From the NCBI RefSeq assembly GCF_000209165.1, contig NC_009045.1:62001-126000 (forward strand): DNA of 64,000 bases, given 5' to 3'. Under the pieces are notes generated by a model. The model did not search any database. It was not told where the DNA came from and saw only the letters and a list, made by a program, of their open reading frames with translations. Shown one piece after another: positions 8,494 through 32,662 of the stretch. The translations under genes and the position numbers were made by a program. The DNA is from Scheffersomyces stipitis CBS 6054. Lineage: Eukaryota; Ascomycota; Pichiomycetes; Serinales; Debaryomycetaceae. Within the stretch, counting starts at the first letter, position 1. Each line of letters begins with the position of its first letter.

Positions 8494-9813
8494 ATGGAAG
8501 TAGACTCCTCTCTTGATATAATATCTCCACATGATGAATTTCAGCTGGACGAGTACAAACTCGATTTGGCCGACTTCATTAGCGAAGAAGACTCCCCATT
8601 CATAGAGAACGAGCAAGAAGACATCAGAATCCACAGTCCAGTTAAGAAGCAAAAGACAAACGTATTTTCAACAGATTTCCTTCATCTTGGACCTTTACTA
8701 AACAACAGCCGAGTTCAGCTTCAACCAGATGTGAAAGAATCGCACGTCATAACCAATGAATTGTTCCAAGTGACCTCCAATTTGAGGAAGTCTGTCTCCA
8801 GAGAGAGTCAGGATATCTTCAAATTCGACGATGACTCAGACTTTTTCCCCAAAAAGAGATTGAATAACGACAAGGTTGAAAAGCTTGTTCATGACTTAGG
8901 CTCCACCAAAAGTAAATCGGGCGAACTCTTTGATTTCGAACTAGACGATCAATTGCGTACCCGTTTCTACAAAGGCAGATTCAACAAGGTCAACCAATTC
9001 AGTATAGAGCAGAACGATGACGTGGACTCGCAGATTCTGACTTATCTTGGAGGATCTTCGTCTTTTCTTCCCAAGAAGAACAACGACAACAAAGAGAACT
9101 TGTCTCCCTTCCCAGATCCTTTGAAGTCTGTCAATACCAAGGAGAACTTCTCCATCAAGAAGTCCAACAAGACATTTTTCAGACCACCCAGAAGAAATCA
9201 AGGCAGAGCGTCGATTCCAGTGCTCAAGCCTTTGTCAAACTTGGCTAATGTAGACTTCAAGAAGAGCGAATCACCCTTAGTTCTGAACATAAACTCCAAC
9301 AAACGCCTTTGTTCTCCTCACCATAGAAAAAACATTGCCATAAAACCCAGTCGCAAATTGACACAGACAAATCACAATATATTTGTGGTAGAGTCCCTGA
9401 CAGGGCTAGTCAACGATGCCACCAAATTCGGTACAGAACTTAATGCTTCCAGTTGTGAAGATTTCCCATTACCAGAATATGCCAACGAAATAGTCCAGAT
9501 TCCTACCAACGAAGACTCTCATAATAAAGTGCAGAAGATGGCCATAATAAAGTTGGTGCCAAATAGACTGTTTTCACAAACTACTGCTGCGGATTCCACG
9601 ACAGAACAGAGAGGATTTTACAACGCCGAGCAATACCGGAAGTATAAGGAAGATCTCTCCTTTGTTCAGGAAGATTCAGGAGTTGAAGTGATTGGCCAGA
9701 CTCTTAATAACGACTTCAACCAAAGCAGCAGCAGTAGCCACAAGTCTGCAACGCCCTCAAACAATACAAAAAAGACACGAGAAGTACATTGGCCCGATAC
9801 TTTAGAGTGGTAG
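8494..9813 (+). CDS. Unrecognised protein with two KEN boxes
   Basis: The 439-residue protein is hydrophilic and mostly disordered, and I do not recognise it. The N-terminus is acidic (MEVDSSLDIISPHDEF). A basic patch SPVKKQK around residue 50 could be a nuclear signal preceded by a Ser-Pro phosphosite. Two KEN motifs, the APC/C-Cdh1 degron core, occur at residues 200-202 and 216-218, the first followed by Ser-Pro. The C-terminus ends in a compact KKTREVHWPDTLEW. The pattern suggests a cell-cycle regulated nuclear protein (inference). The frame is open 96 bp upstream but without ATG, so the start is the ATG at 8494. Confidence 0.8.
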   Translation: MEVDSSLDIISPHDEFQLDEYKLDLADFISEEDSPFIENEQEDIRIHSPVKKQKTNVFSTDFLHLGPLLNNSRVQLQPDVKESHVITNELFQVTSNLRKSVSRESQDIFKFDDDSDFFPKKRLNNDKVEKLVHDLGSTKSKSGELFDFELDDQLRTRFYKGRFNKVNQFSIEQNDDVDSQILTYLGGSSSFLPKKNNDNKENLSPFPDPLKSVNTKENFSIKKSNKTFFRPPRRNQGRASIPVLKPLSNLANVDFKKSESPLVLNINSNKRLCSPHHRKNIAIKPSRKLTQTNHNIFVVESLTGLVNDATKFGTELNASSCEDFPLPEYANEIVQIPTNEDSHNKVQKMAIIKLVPNRLFSQTTAADSTTEQRGFYNAEQYRKYKEDLSFVQEDSGVEVIGQTLNNDFNQSSSSSHKSATPSNNTKKTREVHWPDTLEW

Positions 9814-12571: not shown

Positions 12572-14980
12572 ATGAGATTTGGAGTAGTAATAACTGCTTT
12601 CGCAGCCATATCCTCACTTGTGAGTGCCGCTCCCACCAAGGGGGCATTGAAAGAAGTTTCCTCTGAAAAGTTCGACTTCGATCTCGATTCGATAATAGCA
12701 AAACTCGAGACTTTAAACCCTACGAAACGGGATATCAGGAAGAGAGACTCCAGCCAATTTGTAAACTCATTATTGGAGCTGTTGCAAGGCTCCAACTTGA
12801 TTGATGAACTTTTCAAACAGATTGTCAACAGTACTGAAAATGAAGAAACATTATCTCAATCAGTTGTTTCAGCTATATCCAGAAATAAAGTGAACCCAGA
12901 CACAATCTATGATGCCATGGATGATTCCGACTTATTTCCTCAATTTTACAACTACGTTTTGAGTGACAAGGAATTGAAACCTACTGCTGTTGAATATGCC
13001 AAAAACTTGTATCAGAATGGTAAACTTACTCTTTCTGAGTTCAAGGAAGTGACAGAATCAGAGGTTAAGAGAGAACTTGCAGTGCAACATTCTAAGTTGT
13101 CCAAGAAGGATTTGGACTACGTCACCAAAATCTATCAATCGTTAGCAAGCTCCAACTTGCTCAGCAGTGTGACAGACTCCATTTTCGACAACGAAAATTT
13201 AAAAGAATCAAGCAGTTCTTTCATTAAAACCAGCATAATGAATACTCCTTGTGACAAGAGCTTTGAAGTTATCAAGAGATCTGGTCAAGCATCTGACTTA
13301 ATCGCAAGATCCTTGAAATCTTCAGAATTACAAAACAAGTTCGCCAGAGAAATTTCCAACAAGGTTATTGACGGATCTCTTTCGAAGAGAGCAATTGTCG
13401 GTTCTGTTGGAGCCAGTGCCGCTATTGGCGAAGAACCTGTGTCAGCTGCTGCAATTGACGCTTCTGTTGCTGTTGACATTGGAGTTTCTGCCACTTCTGA
13501 GACTTCTGCCACTCCTGATATAGTCAAAACTTCTGAAACCACTGCTGGTACAGCTACCGCAGAGGGTCTCTTAGGTGACATTGACGGCTTGTTAGGTGGC
13601 GAAGAGAATTCTGCTACTATTGCATCTTCCGCTCTGGTTGCCACATCCAATACTGCTGCTACAACCAAATCCCCAGATTTATTGGGAGGTATTTTGGGTG
13701 ATATCTTGGGCGGGGATGATACTGATACTTCTGCAACCACAACATCAGCATCAACTTCTGCTACTGCTGCCACAACTTCTACTAAGGGGAACCTCATCGA
13801 TGATCTTTTCGGTGGCTTATTTGGAGACAGCAGTAACACTGCTACCAGCTCATCTTCTGCCCAAGCTACTGCCACCGCAACTGCTACTTCCTCTTCCGGT
13901 GGTTCTTTCTTTGACAGCATTCTCGGAATCTTTGGTCTTGGCGGAGATTCTTCAAGTCCAACTACAACAACTTCCTCTGCTCCAAAATCCACATCGACCG
14001 GCTCTCTTTTTGATGATATCATTGATGGGGTCGATGACTTATTAGGTGGTGGAGATACAGGCTCTACCAAGACTTCTTCATCTTCATCTTCAACCTCCAC
14101 CTCTGGGTCTTTGTTGGATGATATTTTCGATGAATTTTTTGGCAGCAGTAGCAGCTCAACCTCAACTCCTGCGTCCTCCTCCTCCTCGTCAAGTGGAGAT
14201 TGGTTGAGTGATCTTTTGGATTCGTTTTTTGGGCCATCTAATTCAACCAGCTCTCCTAAATCCACATCATCTGGATCATCTTCAAACCTTTTGGAAGATC
14301 TCATTAACGAACTTTTTCCAGAAGGAACTAATACAACTAGTTCCGGAAATGGAGAGAGTCTCCTAGATGTCATAATTGGAATTGGGGAAGATTTACTTGG
14401 TGACTTATTTGGAGGCTCTTCAGGAAGTTCCACTGGAGGCTCCAGTCTTTTGGCTGGTATCTTCGCAATTGCAGCAGATGTCGTTTCAGACTTGTTTGGC
14501 CTCCTTTCATCTGATGCTGGATCTCTTCTTTCATATGGAGAAAGCTTTATTGGCTCGCTTATCAAGGGCCTCTTCGGTCTGTTGTTTTCGTCTACGAGTT
14601 CTTCAAGCTCTTCCGGCAAAGGTTTAATAGAATCAATTCTTGACGCTATATTTGGAGGTGTTTCTGGTTCATCTTCAACATCTACTGGGAGCTTCTCATC
14701 TATATTTGGTTCTATCGTCAGCGAGATTCTTGATGCTATTTTTGGAGACTCTTCTTCTTCCTCAAGCAGCTCCTCTTCATCATCGGGTTCTTCCTTGTTT
14801 GGATCTACTCCAAAACAATGTTGCTGTCCAAGCATTGTCAAGAGAAACTTGGCTAAAAGAGAACTTAGAGTTCAAATTAGACAGAGCATCAGAAAGAGTA
14901 TTACAAGAGCAATAGAACAAAAAGCTCAGAAGCAAGCTTCGTCACAGTACATTGACTACATCGACTCCTTACAGAAGTAG
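12572..14980 (+). CDS. Secreted Ser-rich protein with hydrophobic modules and dibasic cleavage sites
   Basis: This is an 802-residue secretory protein I cannot assign. A signal peptide (MRFGVVITAFAAISSLVSA) is followed by Kex2-type Lys-Arg at 52-53 and 57-58. A helical, non-repetitive domain spans about 60-270 and ends near another Lys-Arg at about 272. From about 300 to 745, a dozen or more short Leu/Ile/Phe/Gly-Asp modules (for example LLDDIFDEFFGSSSS, NLIDDLFGGLFGDSS) alternate with Ser/Thr-rich linkers. Three adjacent Cys precede Lys-Arg at 757-758 and 762-763. A 39-residue basic tail closes the protein. There is no GPI signal, so it is probably secreted or wall-trapped. The frame is open upstream without ATG. 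The following gene shares the module design. Confidence 0.88.
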   Translation: MRFGVVITAFAAISSLVSAAPTKGALKEVSSEKFDFDLDSIIAKLETLNPTKRDIRKRDSSQFVNSLLELLQGSNLIDELFKQIVNSTENEETLSQSVVSAISRNKVNPDTIYDAMDDSDLFPQFYNYVLSDKELKPTAVEYAKNLYQNGKLTLSEFKEVTESEVKRELAVQHSKLSKKDLDYVTKIYQSLASSNLLSSVTDSIFDNENLKESSSSFIKTSIMNTPCDKSFEVIKRSGQASDLIARSLKSSELQNKFAREISNKVIDGSLSKRAIVGSVGASAAIGEEPVSAAAIDASVAVDIGVSATSETSATPDIVKTSETTAGTATAEGLLGDIDGLLGGEENSATIASSALVATSNTAATTKSPDLLGGILGDILGGDDTDTSATTTSASTSATAATTSTKGNLIDDLFGGLFGDSSNTATSSSSAQATATATATSSSGGSFFDSILGIFGLGGDSSSPTTTTSSAPKSTSTGSLFDDIIDGVDDLLGGGDTGSTKTSSSSSSTSTSGSLLDDIFDEFFGSSSSSTSTPASSSSSSSGDWLSDLLDSFFGPSNSTSSPKSTSSGSSSNLLEDLINELFPEGTNTTSSGNGESLLDVIIGIGEDLLGDLFGGSSGSSTGGSSLLAGIFAIAADVVSDLFGLLSSDAGSLLSYGESFIGSLIKGLFGLLFSSTSSSSSSGKGLIESILDAIFGGVSGSSSTSTGSFSSIFGSIVSEILDAIFGDSSSSSSSSSSSSGSSLFGSTPKQCCCPSIVKRNLAKRELRVQIRQSIRKSITRAIEQKAQKQASSQYIDYIDSLQK
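13386..14820 (+). repeat. Array of degenerate hydrophobic-module/Ser-linker repeats (Ser-rich gene 1)
   Basis: Within the gene, units of about 25-45 residues repeat in pattern rather than exact sequence. Each is a 10-20-residue hydrophobic stretch of L-L-x-D-I/L-x-x-x-F/L-F-G type, then a Ser/Thr/Gly-rich linker. Long TCT/TCA/TCC runs create a 518-codon open frame on the opposite strand, which is a by-product. Confidence 0.7.
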
Positions 14981-16186
14981 TAGTCTACAACCATACCATA
15001 GGCTAGTCCTAATTCATTTATTGTATACCTAGTTACCAAAAGCGTAAAATATTTAATGTCACGACTAATGTTGTTAATGATTTTCTGTATGATTGTATTT
15101 TACATACCTCTTAGAGCTAGACAGTGTTCTCAAAGTTCAGTAGTTTGTGGCAGTCTTCCGAGACGTTCCGCAAGTCAACGAGGAGGCTTCCAGCACTGCT
15201 TAAAATAGAACGAAACCAAACAGAGAGAATGTACTTACCAAAAGCTTCAAGGCAAATAAAGGAACGTACATTTCCTTATTTGGAACACTAAAGTAGTAGC
15301 TACCAACTAAATCTCGGAACCCCTCCAGGTCTCGCTTATCATGTGAATGAGGTTACCAACGGCATGAAGTTTAGGCTCTGGATTCTAAGCCAAGAGATAA
15401 ACACATTTAACCTCAACTGCCCAAGTGATGTGGGGACAAAAGCAAAACTTTAAATATTCCGAGTGGCACGGATAATTACCCAAAGAGGTTCACAATCAAT
15501 TCCCAATACTGCTTCTTCAATCAATTTATAGAACAGAATCCTATTTTGCGTGAGTTATTCATGAACAACCAATATCAACCCATTTTGCTTCGTGAACCAA
15601 AGGATTTACAGACTTCATGACAATGGACAGATATGCTCATTTGTAAAGGCAAGGTTTGGATTCGCTCTACTGGCCACAAAGTATGAGACAATAGTGAAAA
15701 AAAAACTTTTTCGCAACAATTCCATACTTTGGCCCAAACCGGAAAGACTCAAATGCTGAAGGGGAAAAAACAAATCTCTTTACCAAATTAGGCAATTGGT
15801 GCAACCCGCACCCGATTGAACGATTTTGCAATAATTTTCCTAATTCAGTTGAAGTAAGGTGGGCCACATGAGTCCCAGTTAACCAAATTAGTTCATACAA
15901 AATTACTTGTTTGGGTCCGAAAACTTCAGAAAAATCTACCCCAACTAGAGGGCGATCTTATATATCTCGGGCTACGACCCCTGTCTCTATTCCAACAACT
16001 TGTTGCTTGAAAGTTTTCCTTTTGCTTGTCTTCAAGGTATATTATTCCCTCGTTTCAACGTCACTTCCCACTGTATTTCTTCAGGCTCGTATTCAGTCAC
16101 CACAACGACCAATTTGCAACCTCAACCTTTTGAAGTTCTTCTGATGAAACAGTAATAAAAGTGGGATAGCAAAACTAAATTAAAGT
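14981..16186. promoter_or_regulatory. Long promoter of the GPI-anchored repeat gene
   Basis: These 1.2 kb contain no ATG-initiated frame that looks like protein. A TATA element (TTATATATC) lies around 15958-15966, about 220 bp before the start codon. A nine-base A run followed by CTTTTT is near 15700. AGGGG, the stress-response core, occurs at 15760-15764. Such long upstream regions are common for regulated cell-wall genes. Confidence 0.4.
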
Positions 16187-19100
16187 ATGAGAATAACAAC
16201 CGTGTTAAACACCATTGTGCTAGCCTCAGCAGTAGTATCAGCCGATGGAAAACCCAATAATAACGTCATCAACCAAAAAAGGGGGTTCTTCGACTCATTG
16301 CTAAGCGGCTTAACTGGCAGTTCATCCAGTCCAGCAGCAGCAGCTCCAATCTCTGCCTCCGTTCAAGCCGATACCCCGGTGGCAGATGCCAATGCAGATG
16401 CGGTGGTAGCAGCTCCAGCAGCCGCTCCAGCAGCAGCCGCTCCAGTGGCAGCAGCTCCACAATCTGTTCCAATCTTAGCATCATCCCCAGTAACTGCCGC
16501 AACAGTAGCTGCAGCAGAAGCCAACACATTAATTAATACCCTTGCAGATGCAGCTACCAGTTCATCCGGAGAAAGCAAATTCTTCGATCTCTTTGGTGTA
16601 GACTCATCTAGCTCTCTTTATAATTCAAGCTCTTCTGAGAGTTCCTCATCTTCAACCTCATCCTCATCCACCTTACTTACTACCACAACTCCAGGAACCA
16701 CAACTACTTCAACTGGCATTGATAACTTGGATGGTCTCTTTGGATCGAGCAATCCAACTAGATCTAGCCAAGCCATTAACACACTTCTCCCTACCTCATC
16801 TCCTATACAAAGTACAACTTCAACCGCTAAAGGGTTATTCGCCCTTCTTGGATTAGGGAACGCAGCAACAAAATCTTCGGAAGAATTATCAAGTTCAACT
16901 GGAGTTTCAAGTTCTACTGTGTCATCTAGTTCGTCTTCAGAAGACATTTTTGAACTTCTTGGCTTAAGCGAGTCAGTATCTAGTTCAAGCGAATCATCAA
17001 GCTCTGCATCCTCTGCGGACTTATTTGGCCTTCTTGGTCTTGAAGATTCTTCTGATGACTCTTCCTCTTCTGTGGTTTCTCCTTCTGCTTCTTCGTCGAT
17101 TGCAGCAGTCACTACAACCAACAGGTTTGCTGCACTCTTTGGATTGGGAGGTAGTTCCAGCTCATCGTCTGCCGTCATTGCCTTGCCAACTACTTCTTCA
17201 GCAAAACTTTTGGTTGCTTCTTCAACTGTCTCTTCAGTTTCTAGCAATTCACCCACTCCAAATGCATTGGCAAGATTGTTTGGATTAGGAACTCCTTCCT
17301 CCTCTGAATCCAGCTCATCTAGTGCTTCTGCTTCTGACATTTTTGATTTCTTAAATAATGACAACACAGTGAACACTAGTTCGACCTCAGCTGGTAAACT
17401 TGGTTTTGCTGCTGTAGCTGCTGTGTCGGATTCAGACTCACTCGAAGATTGTACTGATGATGACACTCCAACTACTAGTTACAGTATTCCGGACCTTTCA
17501 GATATCACAGATATTAGTCTCTCAACAGATTTTACAGATCTGGTCAGCTCTGATGAGGACGATTGTTCTGACGAAATCAGTAACACTGTTGTCCCAACCA
17601 GTTACAGTATTCCAGACATTTCTGACATAACAGGCGATGCTACTTCCGGTCCCGCTTCTACTGATATTGCTGCTTCTTCTGACGAAGACGATTGTTCTGA
17701 CGAAATCAGTAACACTGTTGTCCCAACCAGTTACAGTATTCCAGACATTTCTGACATAACAGGCGATGCTACTTCCGGTCCCGCTTCTACTGATATTGCT
17801 GCTTCTTCTGACGAAGACGATTGTTCTGACGAAATCAGTAATAGTGTTGTGCCAACCAGTTACAGTATTCCAGATATTTCTGACATAACTAGTGGTGTCA
17901 CTTCTGGTCCTTCTAGTGTTGCTTCATCTGACGACGCTATCTCTTCTGATGAAGACGATTGTTCTGATGAGATTAGTAACAGTGTTGATCCAACCAGTTA
18001 CAGTATTCCAGATATTTCTGACATAACTAGTGGTGTCACTTCCGATCCTTCTAGTGTTGCTTCATCTGACGTAGCAATCTCTTCTGATGAAGACGATTGT
18101 TCTGATGAGATTAGTAACAGTGTTGACCCAACCAGTTACAGCATTCCAGATATTTCTGACATAACTAGTGGTGTCACTTCCGATCCTTCTAGTGTTGCTT
18201 CATCTGACGTAGCAATCTCTTCTGATGAAGACGATTGTTCTGATGAGATTAGTAACAGTGTTGATCCAACCAGTTACAGTATTCCAGATATTTCTGACAT
18301 AACTAGTGGTGTCACTTCTGATCCTTCTAGTGTTGCTTCATCTGACGTAGCAATCTCTTCTGATGAAGACGATTGTTCTGATGAGATTAGTAACAGTGTT
18401 GACCCAACCAGTTACAGTATTCCAGATATTTCTGACATTACTAGTGGTGTCACTTCTGATCCTTCTAGTGTTGCTTCATCTGATGTCGCTATCTCTTCTG
18501 ACGAGGAAGATTGTTCTGATGAGATCAGCCAGAGTGTTGATCCAACCAGTTTCAGTATTCCAGACCTTTCTAGTGAAGTTACTGATCCAATCTCGTTTAC
18601 GGAATCATCAGATGATGACGATGAGACTGATTGCTCAGAAGAAACCAAACCTCCAATTGTATCCACTGAGGTTACAACTGTTACTACTACATCCCATGTA
18701 ACTATTGTCACTGGTGGTTCTACTATCGTTTCCGTTATCACCAACAAGGTTACATCTACCGTTGAAGAAGACGACGACGATGAATATGACTGTGAAAGTA
18801 CCGTTACTGAAGTTGTTACCAATGTCATTTCCAATAACGGAGTTGTAACTACTATCACCAACATTGTAACGAGGACTACTATTGTTCCTGGCGATGGTGA
18901 TTATGCTACTACCATTACCGATGATGACGATTACGAGACAGTGGAAGTCGACTGCGATGAAACTGTCTACGAGACTCACTACAGAACCACCACTGTCGTC
19001 AATAACGGTGTTGCTCAAACAACAGTTATCACGGTCACCAATACTTACACTTATGAAAACGAAGAAACTGGCTGGAGTGAAGAAGAAGAAGATTGCGATG

Positions 19101-20104
19101 AACCTACTACAACCGTTATCAATTATGTTACTGCTATCGCTGATTCTGGTTCCAGTGGATCCAGCGGTTCTGGATCTGTTGGTTCTGGATCTAGTGGTTC
19201 TGGATCTAGTGGTTCTGGATCTGGTGGATCCTGGTGGGGAAGTTTGGATGAATGCTACGACGATGCCGAAGATGAAGATGATGAAACTTGCGACCCAAGT
19301 TGCCCATGCCCGGAAGAAGAAGAAGAAGTCACTACAATCTATGGTACAGTCACTAAGGTATCTGCTGGCGTTACTCAAGCAGTTGCCGAAGCTGTCACTA
19401 CCAAGGTTGTTACCAAGGCTGCCCAAGTTACCAAGTCTATTGAAGCAGTTACCACAGTGGCCGAAGTTCACACCTCAACAATAACATCTATTTATACCAG
19501 CAAGGGTCAAACCTACGTTACAACAGTTATTTCTAAGGAAACTAGCATCGTCACATACTGCGTCGAAGAAGAAGATGTCGAGACTATCGAAGACGGTGAA
19601 ACCAAAGTAATCACCACAGCCAAGACCATAGCTAAGACTACCGCTAAGACTGCAGCTACCACAGAATCATTAGATTCAGAAGAGACGGATTGCATTGACG
19701 AAGATTGGGAAACGTCTACTGACATTCTCACCTCCTCAGAAACTTCTGCTGATGAATCATCTGAGGTCGCCACCCCAACCAACGAATCTTCTTCTGAGGA
19801 TGCCATCCCAACTGTTGAGTCTTCTGCCACCCATTCAGTGACTGAAACCAACACAGAAACCACTCTCCCAACTGTTTCGCAAGGTTCTTCTAGCCCCTCC
19901 TCAACTTTGATTACTACCACCCTGTCTAGTGCCTCGAATTCAACCTTCTTGGATAGCTTGTTCGAAAGAGCTGTTAGAGAAGCCACTGATTCTGAAAGTT
20001 CTTATGTTCCTGAAGCTACACAAGTTAATGGTGGCATCAGAAGCTTAGCTCCTACCGGAGTTATTTTGATGTTGGCCACTGTGTTGGCTACCATTGTCTT
20101 GTAA
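16187..20104 (+). CDS. GPI-anchored cell-wall/adhesin-like repeat protein
   Basis: The 1305-residue wall protein opens with a signal peptide (about 1-19) and a Lys-Arg at 31-32. About nine FxxLLGL-type hydrophobic modules on Ser-rich linkers fill roughly 33-400. A tandem array of 43- and 46-residue units spans about 454-769, each with one Cys in an EDDCSDE context. Thr/Val beta-rich stretches then alternate with acidic Cys-containing patches. A Gly-Ser linker (about 987-1015), a Cys-rich CDPSCPCP, a Ser/Thr stalk and a C-terminal hydrophobic GPI signal (ending VLATIVL) follow. The layout is that of yeast adhesins or GPI wall proteins. I do not recognise a named N-terminal adhesin domain. It probably shares ancestry with the gene before it. 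Confidence 0.92.
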   Translation: MRITTVLNTIVLASAVVSADGKPNNNVINQKRGFFDSLLSGLTGSSSSPAAAAPISASVQADTPVADANADAVVAAPAAAPAAAAPVAAAPQSVPILASSPVTAATVAAAEANTLINTLADAATSSSGESKFFDLFGVDSSSSLYNSSSSESSSSSTSSSSTLLTTTTPGTTTTSTGIDNLDGLFGSSNPTRSSQAINTLLPTSSPIQSTTSTAKGLFALLGLGNAATKSSEELSSSTGVSSSTVSSSSSSEDIFELLGLSESVSSSSESSSSASSADLFGLLGLEDSSDDSSSSVVSPSASSSIAAVTTTNRFAALFGLGGSSSSSSAVIALPTTSSAKLLVASSTVSSVSSNSPTPNALARLFGLGTPSSSESSSSSASASDIFDFLNNDNTVNTSSTSAGKLGFAAVAAVSDSDSLEDCTDDDTPTTSYSIPDLSDITDISLSTDFTDLVSSDEDDCSDEISNTVVPTSYSIPDISDITGDATSGPASTDIAASSDEDDCSDEISNTVVPTSYSIPDISDITGDATSGPASTDIAASSDEDDCSDEISNSVVPTSYSIPDISDITSGVTSGPSSVASSDDAISSDEDDCSDEISNSVDPTSYSIPDISDITSGVTSDPSSVASSDVAISSDEDDCSDEISNSVDPTSYSIPDISDITSGVTSDPSSVASSDVAISSDEDDCSDEISNSVDPTSYSIPDISDITSGVTSDPSSVASSDVAISSDEDDCSDEISNSVDPTSYSIPDISDITSGVTSDPSSVASSDVAISSDEEDCSDEISQSVDPTSFSIPDLSSEVTDPISFTESSDDDDETDCSEETKPPIVSTEVTTVTTTSHVTIVTGGSTIVSVITNKVTSTVEEDDDDEYDCESTVTEVVTNVISNNGVVTTITNIVTRTTIVPGDGDYATTITDDDDYETVEVDCDETVYETHYRTTTVVNNGVAQTTVITVTNTYTYENEETGWSEEEEDCDEPTTTVINYVTAIADSGSSGSSGSGSVGSGSSGSGSSGSGSGGSWWGSLDECYDDAEDEDDETCDPSCPCPEEEEEVTTIYGTVTKVSAGVTQAVAEAVTTKVVTKAAQVTKSIEAVTTVAEVHTSTITSIYTSKGQTYVTTVISKETSIVTYCVEEEDVETIEDGETKVITTAKTIAKTTAKTAATTESLDSEETDCIDEDWETSTDILTSSETSADESSEVATPTNESSSEDAIPTVESSATHSVTETNTETTLPTVSQGSSSPSSTLITTTLSSASNSTFLDSLFERAVREATDSESSYVPEATQVNGGIRSLAPTGVILMLATVLATIVL
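17546..18493 (+). repeat. Tandem coding repeat, seven units of 129 or 138 bp plus a decayed eighth
   Basis: Units start at 17546, 17675 (129 bp each, encoding 43 residues), then 17804, 17942, 18080, 18218 and 18356 (138 bp each, 46 residues). A diverged eighth begins at 18494. Each encodes SSDEDDCSDEISN, then PTSYSIPDISDIT and a Ser/Thr-rich spacer. Units 1 and 2 encode identical peptides, and units 4-7 are nearly identical even at DNA level. This points to recent unequal exchange, and copy number probably varies between strains. Confidence 0.95.
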
Positions 20105-20733: not shown

Positions 20734-23145
20734 ATGGAGGTAGATCGACAGACATTGCTATATTTCATCATTATGCTCATATTTATTACACTTCCCAGTG
20801 GCAATGACCAGCCGCATTCCACACGGGAAAAGGAGACCTTGATCACATATCAGAAACACCTTCGACTGGAGCAAGAAGAATTAGCTAATAGCACCTACAC
20901 TTCGGGTTACGGGAATGTCACGGGATTTCATTTATCCTACCAGGACCTTGTAGATGGTCACAATGAGACAGAATGGCCCTTACATCGATTCAATGATAAA
21001 CATCATTGGCGAGAAGACGAAAAGTTCTCGCTCTTACCGAATTCCGTGAGCGACGTAATTAAGCTGTTTTGGGCTCAAGAACCAGTGCTAAGCGAGCGTG
21101 ACGACAAGGCCTATTTGCTTAATATTTCAGGACAGGCATTTGGAGAGTTCAAGATACATTCCGTTTCCGACTTGAAAAGATACAACTTCACTCTTCCTGA
21201 TTATCTCCAGAAGTACTATGATTCGTACGACCCTAATCAGAATGCTCCCGAGGATGGAGAGCAAGAATCTCCCCTTCCTCCAGACCCGATGATACTGAAG
21301 CCAATTCAGAAAACAGGGAATATGACCAAATCATCCGGAAAAATTTCCTTGCAAATAAGTGCATACGACTACAATTATCGAAACGCGGAGCTTTCGAAGT
21401 TTATCTTCAACGAAACTACAGACAGAATAAACGACACAGTAGTGGCGAGAGTGGCGATGAGCTTGAAAGACTACGACGAGATAGAATCTCACGACTTAGA
21501 GACTAGAGGAGTGTATTTCCAAGAAACTGGGGCATTGGTAACGATAACGAGATCAGCAAAGTTCTTGGGTACTCATGGATTGAGCCACATGACTTTGAAT
21601 GAGAAAAATTTCAATCGCGCAAAGGTACTATTGGGCCAGTACTTGAACTTTACTGACAACGAACGAGACTTGAACCTTGACAACATGAATAACAACATCT
21701 TAAGAAGTAGAGACAGCTGTGAGATGATTTCGTACTTCCAATTTGAAAAGACGGATTACACTAAACAAGAGCTTCAAAACATAGACGAAGAGTTGATTGC
21801 TCCAAGCGGTAGTCCCATCCCTAAAGACTTACCCGGTCTCAAAATCAAGGAATTCTTGTTGTATTCGCCTGACTGTGGATTGCTCTTTCAATCGAAGCCA
21901 GGGATAGAATTCATAGGTTTAAAGTCTGAAATTTACAACATTAGATTTCGACACGTATTAATTGGGCTCATGCTTTTGATAATTATCCAATTGATATTGT
22001 TCTTGAGACAGATTAAGGAAACAAGAACTCCTGGCCAATTGTCCACCATAGCAACAAACACATTATATATGATCGGTTTTCAAGATGCCTTGGTTGTGTT
22101 TCTGTTGATTTTGTTTTCATCGTTCTCGGAGGACTTATACCTTATTCTTGCCTGTGTTGCTGTTTTGGCATTTGTAATGAGTGGGATATTCGAAATGAGA
22201 TTTATAGTGAATGTAATGAGTACTCAGGTCAATGAGAGAGGAACCACATGGTGGCAAATATTGAGGGGAGGGACGGCTGAAACTACAATAACTGATCCTA
22301 CTCCTGAACCTCAATCTACTGAAAACACAAACGAACCTTTACTTCCTACAACGAATCCTCCAGCAAATGCCCCTACCACAGCAGCAACAACCACTAATAC
22401 AACTCCAGGAATGGAAGAGTCCAATATATGGAATAAAATATTTGGGCTTGGTGGATTTTTAACGATCGCATTCACATTTTTGATCTGGAATTCCACATTA
22501 TGGAGAGCAAGCTACAGAAAGATATTTGAATATGTTGGGTTGATTCTCGTGAACTCATTCTGGATTCCTCAGTTCTTGCGGAATACACTTAAAAATCGTA
22601 GAAAATCATTTTCGTGGGAGTTTGTCTTAGGCACCAGTCTTGTTAGGTTGGTACCTGTGATCTATATATGTCTTGAGGACAATATTGGCAGACACCGTTA
22701 CGACCCAGTTTTGGTTTCAGTGCTAACCAGTTGGCTTTCATTCCAAATTTTATTGTTGGTGCTACAGCTGTACATGGGACCTCGGTTCTGGGTCAATGAA
22801 AAGTGGCTTCCAAAGGCTTACGATTATCAGAAGATTTTGCATATTAAAGATCTCGAACATAATTTTTCAAGTGAGCTATTAGCAAATATTAAACCTAATG
22901 AAGGTGGAAACGAAGAGCAGGACAAGGGAATAATCGAGTGCAAGTGCACTTGCCCAATTTGTATGACCGACATCAGCTTGCCGATTTTGACTAAAGATGG
23001 CGACGAAAGCAGACGTAGGAAAATCAACAACAAGTTGTATATGATTACGCCTTGCTACCATATTTTTCATTCCGAGTGTCTTGAGAGCTGGATGAAATAC
23101 AAGTTGCAGTGTCCCGTTTGTAGAGAGAGTCTTCCACCAATATGA
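20734..23145 (+). CDS. TUL1: Golgi Dsc-complex RING ubiquitin ligase
   Basis: This is an 803-residue polytopic membrane protein. An N-terminal signal/anchor is followed by a long lumenal region with many N-glycosylation sequons (to about residue 405). About seven membrane segments follow, interrupted by a Thr/Pro-rich loop near 515-555. A C-terminal RING-H2 finger ends the protein (CTCPIC, MITPCYHIFHSEC, CPVC). This is the layout of yeast TUL1 and fission-yeast Dsc1. TUL1 ubiquitinates misrouted or orphan membrane proteins at Golgi, endosome and vacuole. In fission yeast the Dsc complex is needed to cleave the SREBP Sre1. The next gene here is an SREBP-type factor. Confidence 0.96.
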   Translation: MEVDRQTLLYFIIMLIFITLPSGNDQPHSTREKETLITYQKHLRLEQEELANSTYTSGYGNVTGFHLSYQDLVDGHNETEWPLHRFNDKHHWREDEKFSLLPNSVSDVIKLFWAQEPVLSERDDKAYLLNISGQAFGEFKIHSVSDLKRYNFTLPDYLQKYYDSYDPNQNAPEDGEQESPLPPDPMILKPIQKTGNMTKSSGKISLQISAYDYNYRNAELSKFIFNETTDRINDTVVARVAMSLKDYDEIESHDLETRGVYFQETGALVTITRSAKFLGTHGLSHMTLNEKNFNRAKVLLGQYLNFTDNERDLNLDNMNNNILRSRDSCEMISYFQFEKTDYTKQELQNIDEELIAPSGSPIPKDLPGLKIKEFLLYSPDCGLLFQSKPGIEFIGLKSEIYNIRFRHVLIGLMLLIIIQLILFLRQIKETRTPGQLSTIATNTLYMIGFQDALVVFLLILFSSFSEDLYLILACVAVLAFVMSGIFEMRFIVNVMSTQVNERGTTWWQILRGGTAETTITDPTPEPQSTENTNEPLLPTTNPPANAPTTAATTTNTTPGMEESNIWNKIFGLGGFLTIAFTFLIWNSTLWRASYRKIFEYVGLILVNSFWIPQFLRNTLKNRRKSFSWEFVLGTSLVRLVPVIYICLEDNIGRHRYDPVLVSVLTSWLSFQILLLVLQLYMGPRFWVNEKWLPKAYDYQKILHIKDLEHNFSSELLANIKPNEGGNEEQDKGIIECKCTCPICMTDISLPILTKDGDESRRRKINNKLYMITPCYHIFHSECLESWMKYKLQCPVCRESLPPI

Positions 23146-30814: not shown

Positions 30815-32662
30815 ATGTCCGACTCGGAAGATAGTTCCATTGACATAAATGAATACTCGATCCGTGATTACTACAAATTGCTTCGCCCTCTATGGGCTGC
30901 AAAAAATATCAATGCCAGTTATTTAAATAACCATAAGTTACTCCGCACTTTAGTCGATTTCTCGTTAACACATTCATTATACCTCAAGAATCTTCAAAAG
31001 AGAGAATTAGAACTTGGTGATATAATTCCCACAAAAATTAATTATGTCGACGCTCTAGTAATCAAGACTCCCAACAATAACAGTTTAAATAACACAGAAC
31101 ACGCTTATCAATACTATGGATGTTTCAGAAATAAATTCGTGGAATTTTGTCCTCACTTGGCCATAGCAGTCTACTTGTTCAGTAGATTCCATATTCCAGA
31201 TGAGTACGGATCACTTGAATTCATGGTCTCGGACTACAAGAACAAACTCTCCCTAGAAGATGTCAAGCTATTGAAAGGAAACAATAAGCTATCCGCCATA
31301 TCTTATAGTCAACAACATAAATCGTCCATCAATGCCCTAAGCCTAAGTGGTTTAAACTATAAGGATATCAACCTTAATAAACTTTTAGTCACTCAAACTT
31401 TAGACATTCAAGAAAAGTTAGTTCTGTTGGACATTGACCATCTTCCTCATCTGGTCATGTTGAGCTTGGCCGGTTTCGAATCTTTCACTGACTACAATAT
31501 AGCAAGAAATTCAGTAGAACCTCCACAGGAATTGCTTGAACAAATCTTCCCTTTCATCAATAAGCCAAATCCAGAAGAGTCTTTGGCCATGACTAGAATC
31601 AGACAGTTATTGATGATGCTTAGAAGGACCTTGTGTCAAGATATGGTTATAATCAAGAAGAAATATCCATCTAATCCAGTTTCCAGAAATCCAATTTTCA
31701 GCTCGGAATTATTTACCAACTTCTGCAATGAAGTTGAAGCTGCTGGGATAATCGAGGGAACTCCTACATTCTTTCCACCAGAAGAGGAAGACTATGATAT
31801 GAATGGGGAAGTCGAGGAATATGATCAAAATAGCAGCGATAACAAGGTAGACCTTCAAAAAATTATCGAAATTCAAAATAGTAAAATTAAGAACTTGGAA
31901 GAGCAACTAGGCAATTATTACTCTGAACAGAGGGTTATATTTTCCAATCTCAGTGATTTCATCGAGCGTCAAAATGAAGTATTTCAGCGCCAGAGTGAAT
32001 ACATGCAAAAGATCCAAAATTCTACAAATGGTCTTCTTGTTCTCTTATCTACGAGGAACAAGAATATGATCCCTCTAGTTCAACAAAGTCTATCAGAAAC
32101 TAGTGAATTTATTTCGTCCATCAACAACACAAATATTAAACAAGGATTGAATAACAGCATTGAATTACTTGCAAAATTGAATAGCAACACACACAGCCAA
32201 CAGCAACACATAGTTTCCATCACAAACAACACACAATCGATAATCAACCAAAGTATAGTACAACCACCCAGCGAGCGGCCAAGCAGCACTCCTTTCCAGC
32301 CACCACCATTAACTCCAAAACAAATAGAACGTCAAACAGTTTTGAGGAGGCGTTTGTCCAGACAGGCTACTACCTTATTTGAAATGTGGGACGATTTTAA
32401 GGGTTTGGAACAAGAGTTGAAAGACCATGAAATTACCGTGACAGAATGGTTAAAGGTTCATGGAAGTTCTGAAAGACAATTTAGACACACTCGGTTAAAG
32501 ATTATCAAGTTTATTGAGGATGAGGCAGCAAGAAGGAATTGCCCAGTTGAATTTGTCAAGGAAAAACTCCATACAAAGATGAGAAATAGAGTGAGACCTT
32601 GGACTTTAGACGAAGTACAGAGAATGCTTACTTCAGGTAAGAGAATTGATTTGGACGACTAG
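30815..32662 (+). CDS. Crypton/NDC10-like regulator with GCR1-type C-terminal DNA-binding domain
   Basis: This is a 615-residue putative transcription factor. Residues about 98-126 (YGCFRNKFVEFCPHLAIAVY and following) and 217-250 (LAGFESF..Y..R....PPQELLEQIFPF) match the pattern of the NDC10 domain II / Crypton tyrosine-recombinase-derived family. An acidic linker and a coiled coil (about 345-420) follow, then an Asn/Gln/Ser-rich stretch. Residues about 515-575 (LFEMWDDFKGLEQE through ERQFRHTRLKIIKFIEDE) resemble the GCR1_C DNA-binding domain. Recombinase catalytic residues do not look intact, so a domesticated DNA-binding role is likely. The target genes are unknown. Domain calls are from pattern memory. 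Confidence 0.75.
   Translation: MSDSEDSSIDINEYSIRDYYKLLRPLWAAKNINASYLNNHKLLRTLVDFSLTHSLYLKNLQKRELELGDIIPTKINYVDALVIKTPNNNSLNNTEHAYQYYGCFRNKFVEFCPHLAIAVYLFSRFHIPDEYGSLEFMVSDYKNKLSLEDVKLLKGNNKLSAISYSQQHKSSINALSLSGLNYKDINLNKLLVTQTLDIQEKLVLLDIDHLPHLVMLSLAGFESFTDYNIARNSVEPPQELLEQIFPFINKPNPEESLAMTRIRQLLMMLRRTLCQDMVIIKKKYPSNPVSRNPIFSSELFTNFCNEVEAAGIIEGTPTFFPPEEEDYDMNGEVEEYDQNSSDNKVDLQKIIEIQNSKIKNLEEQLGNYYSEQRVIFSNLSDFIERQNEVFQRQSEYMQKIQNSTNGLLVLLSTRNKNMIPLVQQSLSETSEFISSINNTNIKQGLNNSIELLAKLNSNTHSQQQHIVSITNNTQSIINQSIVQPPSERPSSTPFQPPPLTPKQIERQTVLRRRLSRQATTLFEMWDDFKGLEQELKDHEITVTEWLKVHGSSERQFRHTRLKIIKFIEDEAARRNCPVEFVKEKLHTKMRNRVRPWTLDEVQRMLTSGKRIDLDD

Follow-up and report, generated by a model that had tools for sequence, protein, structure and literature searches.

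A probable OP4-family protein with thirteen hydrophobic units in its linker, and a wall-type neighbor, in Scheffersomyces stipitis

Two neighboring secretory genes

The window analyzed here is a stretch of 64,000 nucleotides from Scheffersomyces stipitis CBS 6054 (contig NC_009045.1, positions 62,001 to 126,000 of the forward strand), and positions given as start..end are positions in that window. Two adjacent genes lie on its plus strand, as do all of the features that we describe for them. The first, which we call P1 (12572..14980), encodes 802 amino acids, and the second, P2 (16187..20104), encodes 1305. Both are intact open reading frames (ORFs) when CTG is read as Ser, and P1 needs no intron. 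P1 appears to be a secreted protein of the OP4 family with an unusually long linker, and P2 looks like a Ser/Thr/Asp-rich wall protein of the glycosylphosphatidylinositol (GPI) type. An initial annotation, made from the sequence alone, had read the two as sharing one modular design. It was right that both have a signal peptide-like N-terminus (by inspection) and an early Lys-Arg.

P1 begins with a signal peptide (residues 1-19; 12572..12628), as judged by inspection and by alignment to its OP4 relatives. The OP4-type region follows (residues 20-273; 12629..13390) and ends at the last N-terminal Lys-Arg. Lys-Arg pairs fall at residues 52-53 (12725..12730, a Kex2-type site), 57-58 (12740..12745), 166-167 (13067..13072), 235-236 (13274..13279) and 272-273 (13385..13390), and the last of these bounds the array of hydrophobic units (residues 333-724; 13568..14743) on its upstream side. 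A sequence scan found no Lys-Arg between residues 274 and 756, and so none between the units; the sole Arg within 274-758 is part of the closing Lys-Arg. The array region (274-756) has a net charge of -44 and is 37% Ser plus Thr. The tail (14819..14977) holds CCC at 750-752, Lys-Arg at 757-758 and 762-763, and a basic end of 39 residues. Residue 227 is the only Cys besides these three.

Membership in the OP4 family

About 250 N-terminal residues of P1 match small secreted proteins encoded elsewhere in the same genome, which we searched as the S. stipitis CBS 6054 assembly (15.44 Mb in 8 contigs). Among these is L004, whose full-length sequence is 100% identical to that of a database entry (P0001) that NCBI names a 'predicted protein' and UniRef an 'Opaque-phase-specific protein OP4'. 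A database search with L004, which returned only proteins 0.55-1.75 times the query length, listed 49 proteins of 163-407 amino acids, and from these we built a hidden Markov model (HMM). An OP4-type name is attached to two of the 49 (P0001 and P0048) and an organism name to 11, all of them yeasts of the CTG clade.

P1 scores 64.5 bits against the HMM (E 4e-19, residues 4-282). Seven other loci of the genome match it as well: L004 with 390 bits (being itself in the model), L003 with 264, L002 with 233, L011 with 95, L013 with 79, L009 with 67 and L012 with 51. The controls gave best scores of 6.7 for 500 shuffles of P1, 2.3 for 200 shuffles of P2 and 3.2 for 61 other ORFs. When P1 was aligned to the family with hhalign, the probability was 98 and the E value 1.8e-13.

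The layout of P1 is also that of the family, which has an inter-domain Lys-Arg in 45 of the 49 relatives and an early Lys-Arg in 29. P1 has both, with 166-167 between its helical parts, near the family's place, and 52-53 and 57-58 early. In addition, it shares the signal peptide, the helical region and the Ser/Thr linker. Twelve of the 49 relatives end in a Cys and a run of Lys/Arg, and the tail of P1 is comparable in position to the tail of this branch, although its CCC is followed by an end that is basic and not polybasic. What sets P1 apart is the linker of ~480 residues bearing 13 units, which the relatives do not have within the length limits of the search. The evidence argues strongly that P1 belongs to the OP4 (opaque-phase-specific) family, where the initial annotation knew of no named family. 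It would be a divergent member with an enlarged linker and so a novel variation on a known family.

AlphaFold, given 49 rows, modeled P0001 with a predicted local distance difference test score (pLDDT) of 73.4 and with six helices in each of two regions, 76-163 and 197-286. These are parted by a low-confidence stretch (172-194) that lies between Lys-Arg 171-172 and 196-197. A fold search gave no convincing match for the OP4 region.

The link between P1 and Op4 of Candida albicans is only through the names that the databases give to P0001 and P0048, and not through direct sequence comparison. According to the part of PMC3569869 available to us, C. albicans Op4 is thought to be opaque-phase-specific in transcription and was detected in the secretome; its loss made cells on lactate more sensitive to caspofungin and tunicamycin, and the paper lists it both with proteins for which loss phenotypes were seen on Calcofluor White plates and with proteins that influence adherence. 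Op4 proteins of C. parapsilosis and C. tropicalis are found in the tables of an extracellular-vesicle paper (PMC7408413, likewise available in part). Detection in the secretome and the vesicle tables would suit a reading in which activity resides in the OP4 helical domains, which bind lipid, sterol or a surface, with the array as a multivalent tether in the wall or a vesicle coat and P2 as a mere neighbor. Common ancestry of P1 and P2 is indeed undetectable, as described below. However, Lys-Arg 272-273, if cut, would separate the domains from the array, and no fold match indicates a ligand for the OP4 domain. We consider this reading rather unlikely.

Two of the genomic relatives have features of their own. 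L013 (C2:432937-434097) has 576 amino acids, two unit-like segments and, by inspection, a C-terminus of GPI type; it may be an OP4 protein that is anchored in the wall. L012 (C5:842131-842361) has a long Glu/Asp/Lys-rich low-complexity insert ahead of its helical part.

Hydrophobic units in the P1 linker

The 13 units sit on Ser/Thr linkers and were located by a mechanical search for hydrophobic blocks over residues 333-724, with unit edges set by hand afterwards. In order, they are LLGDIDGLL (13568..13594), LLGGILGDILG (13679..13711), LIDDLFGGLFG (13793..13825), FFDSILGIFGL (13907..13939), LFDDIIDGVDDLL (14006..14044), LLDDIFDEFFG (14111..14143), WLSDLLDSFFG (14201..14233), LLEDLINELFP (14288..14320), LLDVIIGIGEDLLGDLF (14360..14410), LLAGIFAIAADVVSDLFGLL (14447..14506), LLSYGESFIGSLIKGLFGSLF (14525..14587), LIESILDAIFGGV (14624..14662) and FSSIFGSIVSEILDAIF (14693..14743). 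The initial annotation had counted a dozen or more copies of LLxD[IL]xxxFFG. The 13 blocks agree with that number, but the literal motif occurs once and a loose version of it 3 times.

Shuffles of residues 322-755 yield equally many blocks (mean 14.6), so the block number means little and the clumping is the distinctive feature. Of these 434 residues, 239 lie in hydrophobic-free runs of at least 10, whereas 1000 shuffles averaged 94 and never exceeded 152. Within the blocks the hydrophobic density is 0.56, where the shuffles reached at most 0.53.

The units align best as an 11-mer in which positions 1, 2, 5, 6, 9 and 10 are hydrophobic and Gly, or in one case Pro, comes next. We made a unit matrix from the 8 exact 11-mers in the blocks that fit PhiPhi..PhiPhi..Phi[LF][GP], where Phi is a hydrophobic residue, and their leave-one-out scores were 12.3-24.2 bits. 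Averaged over the 13 units, the helical moment ranks at the 95th percentile of shuffles made within each unit. The strand moment is under the shuffle median in 11 of the 13, with unit 1 at the 82nd percentile and unit 10 at the 50th; the P2 beads described below are too short to judge in this way. The P1 units carry the periodicity of an amphipathic helix, and the earlier description of them as amphipathic and as conserved in pattern, not in sequence, holds. We infer that they would in fact form helices.

The DNA of the eight units is 54% identical, and 54 of the 109 identical-residue pairs use the same codon (41 expected from the codon use of P1). We looked for a DNA tandem repeat in P1 and found none. 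Because of this and the level of DNA identity, we do not regard the units as recent duplications. Along the array, the linkers shorten (28, 27, 27, 22, 22, 19, 18, 13, 12, 6, 12 and 10 residues; rho -0.97) and the units lengthen toward the C-terminus (rho 0.80).

Low-complexity regions of yeast wall proteins expand easily, and the hydrophobic blocks could be passive relics of Ser-rich expansion and of helix copies that drift without function, constrained only by secretion. The array is known from one genome, with no array-bearing relative among the matches listed, and the layout of P2 is within chance, both of which suit such an origin. However, the clumping of P1 exceeds all of the shuffles even though the units are far diverged in DNA, and a graded linker length is not what we would expect from drift. 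We therefore think that passive relics are unlikely.

The initial annotation also proposed that the units might be released as peptides or drive amyloid-like assembly. Rep1 of Ustilago maydis is a protein of that kind: according to a review table (PMC4617103, available in part), Kex2 splits its twelve imperfect amphipathic repeats, of 34-55 amino acids, into peptides that form amyloid-like fibrils. P1 is comparable in that it, too, is predicted to be secreted and cut by Kex2 and has a dozen or so imperfect amphipathic repeats, which are 23-38 residues apart. Its signal peptide and several Lys-Arg are also found in the KEX2-processed repeat proteins (KEPs), which include Ece1. In Rep1 the Kex2 sites part the repeats, whereas P1 differs from both Rep1 and the KEPs in having no such site between its units, which argues against their release as peptides. 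Its helical, not strand-like, periodicity makes amyloid in P1 less likely. That P1 is a repellent-like precursor, with units freed as peptides that form amyloid-like, surface-active fibrils, seems very unlikely to us.

A possible source of the units

When the P1 unit matrix was run over the 49 relatives, its best place was the same alignment column in 28 of them. The column belongs to a core helix toward the end of the second OP4 region, an example being dsgLVGSLFKEFFT of P0038. The median best score was 9.6 in the relatives, 4.3 after shuffling and 2.85 in 42 pieces of window ORFs. When the columns of the matrix were permuted, hydrophobic positions only among themselves and polar ones likewise, the median score was lower in 300 of 300 trials. 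The two segments of L013 that are similar to the P1 units are ILEAAIGKLFG, which a run of Ser follows, and VLAAVFGGLFG, which is followed by a Ser/Thr/Pro stretch. These matches suggest that the P1 units may be copies of an OP4 helix, which we treat as a lead and not as proof.

Taken further, the core helix could have been copied 13 times into the linker to give a graded sticker-and-spacer polymer, with P2 having gained its beads independently or sharing the core. P1 would then be a yeast counterpart of repellents and hydrophobins that is based on helices and left uncleaved. This fuller version is tentative, and we would not expect it to be correct in all its parts. With the hydrophobins P1 might have surface activity in common; neither P1 nor P2 has a Pfam match to a hydrophobin domain, and P1 has only 4 Cys, three of them adjacent.

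The wall-type neighbor

P2 has one Lys-Arg, at residues 31-32 (16277..16282). Directly after it comes bead 1, GFFDSLLSGLTG (residues 33-44; 16283..16318), which contains the only 11-mer of the P1 pattern in P2. The other beads are FFDLFGV (16580..16600), IDNLDGLF (16718..16741), LFALLGL (16835..16855), IFELLGL (16946..16966), LFGLLGL (17021..17041), FAALFGL (17126..17146), LARLFGL (17267..17287) and IFDFL (17339..17353), where the last is weak and lacks the core shared with P1. All nine were picked by eye. About nine copies of FxxLLGL had been proposed for P2. The five strings quoted in support are present and the loose motif [FLI]..[LF][LF]G[LV] occurs 6 times, but the literal motif does not occur.

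The search used for P1 finds 14 hydrophobic blocks in residues 30-400 of P2 (shuffle mean 11.8). The linkers are not clean, with 38 of 300 residues hydrophobic, and the clumping is within chance. The bead motif in P2 is real; a clean layout of beads on linkers is not shown.

The remainder of P2 consists of a tandem array, acidic and Thr/Val-rich segments, and a C-terminus of GPI-attachment type (20027..20101), which on inspection has NGG, a short spacer and a hydrophobic end. The tandem repeats (17549..18571) are 129/138 bp long with the motif DCSDEIS..SYSIPDISDIT, and DCSDEIS is found at eight places in the array. Because of their identity we consider the repeats to be recent, and the length of the array is likely to differ between strains.

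P2 resembles the GPI-anchored Ser/Thr-rich wall proteins of yeasts in its signal peptide, its Ser/Thr-rich body and its GPI-type end, the two termini being judged by inspection. It differs from them by its N-terminal hydrophobic beads and in having no Pfam match up to E 0.1. The OP4 helical region was not detected in P2 with the OP4 HMM (-1.1 bits, under the best shuffles). Among the matches listed, P2 has no other match in its own genome and no relative in another species; the sole database match among them, P0050, is the same sequence in a chimeric contig.

P0050 is the protein of a 3190-bp ENA contig in which part of a RING-finger gene (20734-23145 in the window) is joined to the end of P2. 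There are odd residues at the joins, which we presume to be adapter sequence from their resemblance to it. Compared with P2, 1 of 546 residues differs, with L for S at P2 residue 1246. The codon there is CTG, for which the standard code would be expected to give L.

Comparison of the two proteins

The core [LIFVWM]..[LIFVM][LIF]G occurs 17 times in residues 322-755 of P1 (2000 shuffles: mean 0.72, maximum 5) and 7 times in residues 30-400 of P2 (shuffle mean 0.14, maximum 2). In 20 other genes of the window there are 26 occurrences in 12,703 amino acids. The core and bead patterns were written after the sequence was seen, and the counts should be read with that in mind.

A profile comparison of the units gives a narrow result. 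The P1 matrix on residues 30-400 of P2 has a top-five sum of 27.1, while 300 plain shuffles reach at most 22.6 and 300 mask-keeping shuffles at most 19.0. Among the other ORFs examined, four OP4 relatives score 37-48 and two unrelated window proteins 29.3 and 26.1. In the reverse direction, the P2 matrix on the P1 array gives 76.3, above the maximum of 67.5 in 500 shuffles and of 51.6 in 25 control pieces. BLASTP of P1 against P2 has an E value of 2.8. Since P2 is only narrowly above its shuffles, is topped by the OP4 relatives and one unrelated window protein, and has an E value of 2.8, no common ancestry is shown.

The reciprocal scores exceed the shuffles, so that the initial annotation is not refuted by the profile check that it named, but they do not bring the two proteins under one design. 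The beads of P2 are mostly 7-mers, it has no OP4 domain and its clumping is within chance. Our verdict is that P2 is probably a separate, wall-type protein that carries the P1 bead in a looser form.

The two could still be a co-evolved pair that assembles through the common Phi-x-x-Phi-Phi-G core. They are adjacent and on one strand, both are enriched in the core, bead 1 of P2 fits the P1 11-mer, and the matrix scores are above all shuffles in both directions. However, the unit lengths differ, the alignment is weak, the layout of P2 is within chance, and the P1 matrix ranks one unrelated window protein above P2 and another close to it. We judge a co-evolved pair to be quite unlikely. Any tie between the products of the two genes is inferred.

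How the array might work

Our preferred explanation is that P1 is an OP4 protein whose acidic multi-helix array is released as one chain that self-associates or occupies interfaces, with P2 as an unrelated wall-type protein. As a whole, we give this explanation about an even chance of being right. The Ser/Thr linker between the OP4 helical region and the Cys/basic tail would have grown to its present length and taken on 13 acidic amphipathic helices. P1 would enter the secretory pathway, where its linkers would be O-mannosylated, and Kex2 would cut after the Lys-Arg sites to separate the OP4 region from the array and the array from the basic end. The genome has one P_proprotein match (a domain of Kex2-type convertases) and five PMT matches. 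Because the array is flanked by Lys-Arg 272-273 and 757-758 and has none inside, it would be released as one chain. Its beads could then self-associate or settle at interfaces through their hydrophobic helix faces, while the glycosylated, negatively charged linkers would keep them soluble and apart. We believe that self-association or adsorption at interfaces would be the simplest use of such a chain. In P2, a cut at the single Lys-Arg would expose bead 1 as the mature N-terminus, and P2 might dock at the wall on an assembly of the kind formed by P1, which is the weakest part of the proposal.

Several observations weigh against this explanation. The basic 39-residue end of P1 has no amphipathicity, and the N-terminal region of P1, when folded from its single sequence, came out as all helix with a poor pLDDT of 42. 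No relative with an expanded P1-type array was found among the protein matches listed, which leaves cross-species selection on the units conjectural. Matrices permuted within hydrophobic and polar positions favor the same OP4 helix, in a mean of 20.6 of the 49 relatives and in at least 28 of them in 30 of 300 trials. In P2, 129 of 371 residues lie in hydrophobic-free runs of at least 10, which is within chance (shuffle mean 97, maximum 158). Finally, we did not meet an established molecular mechanism for any OP4 protein in the literature, as far as the portions available to us go.

The helix-chain spacer of P1 should be an easily made test object for the extracellular role of the OP4 family. 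If the array does self-assemble, the yeast would have a helix-based surface coat that differs from hydrophobins and, in being uncut, from the amyloid repellents.

Other genes in the window

For an ORF at 8494-9813 (439 amino acids), Pfam gave no match up to E 0.1. The ORF at 30815-32662 has an NDC10_II domain (E 4.3e-24), which is a CBF3/centromere-protein domain.

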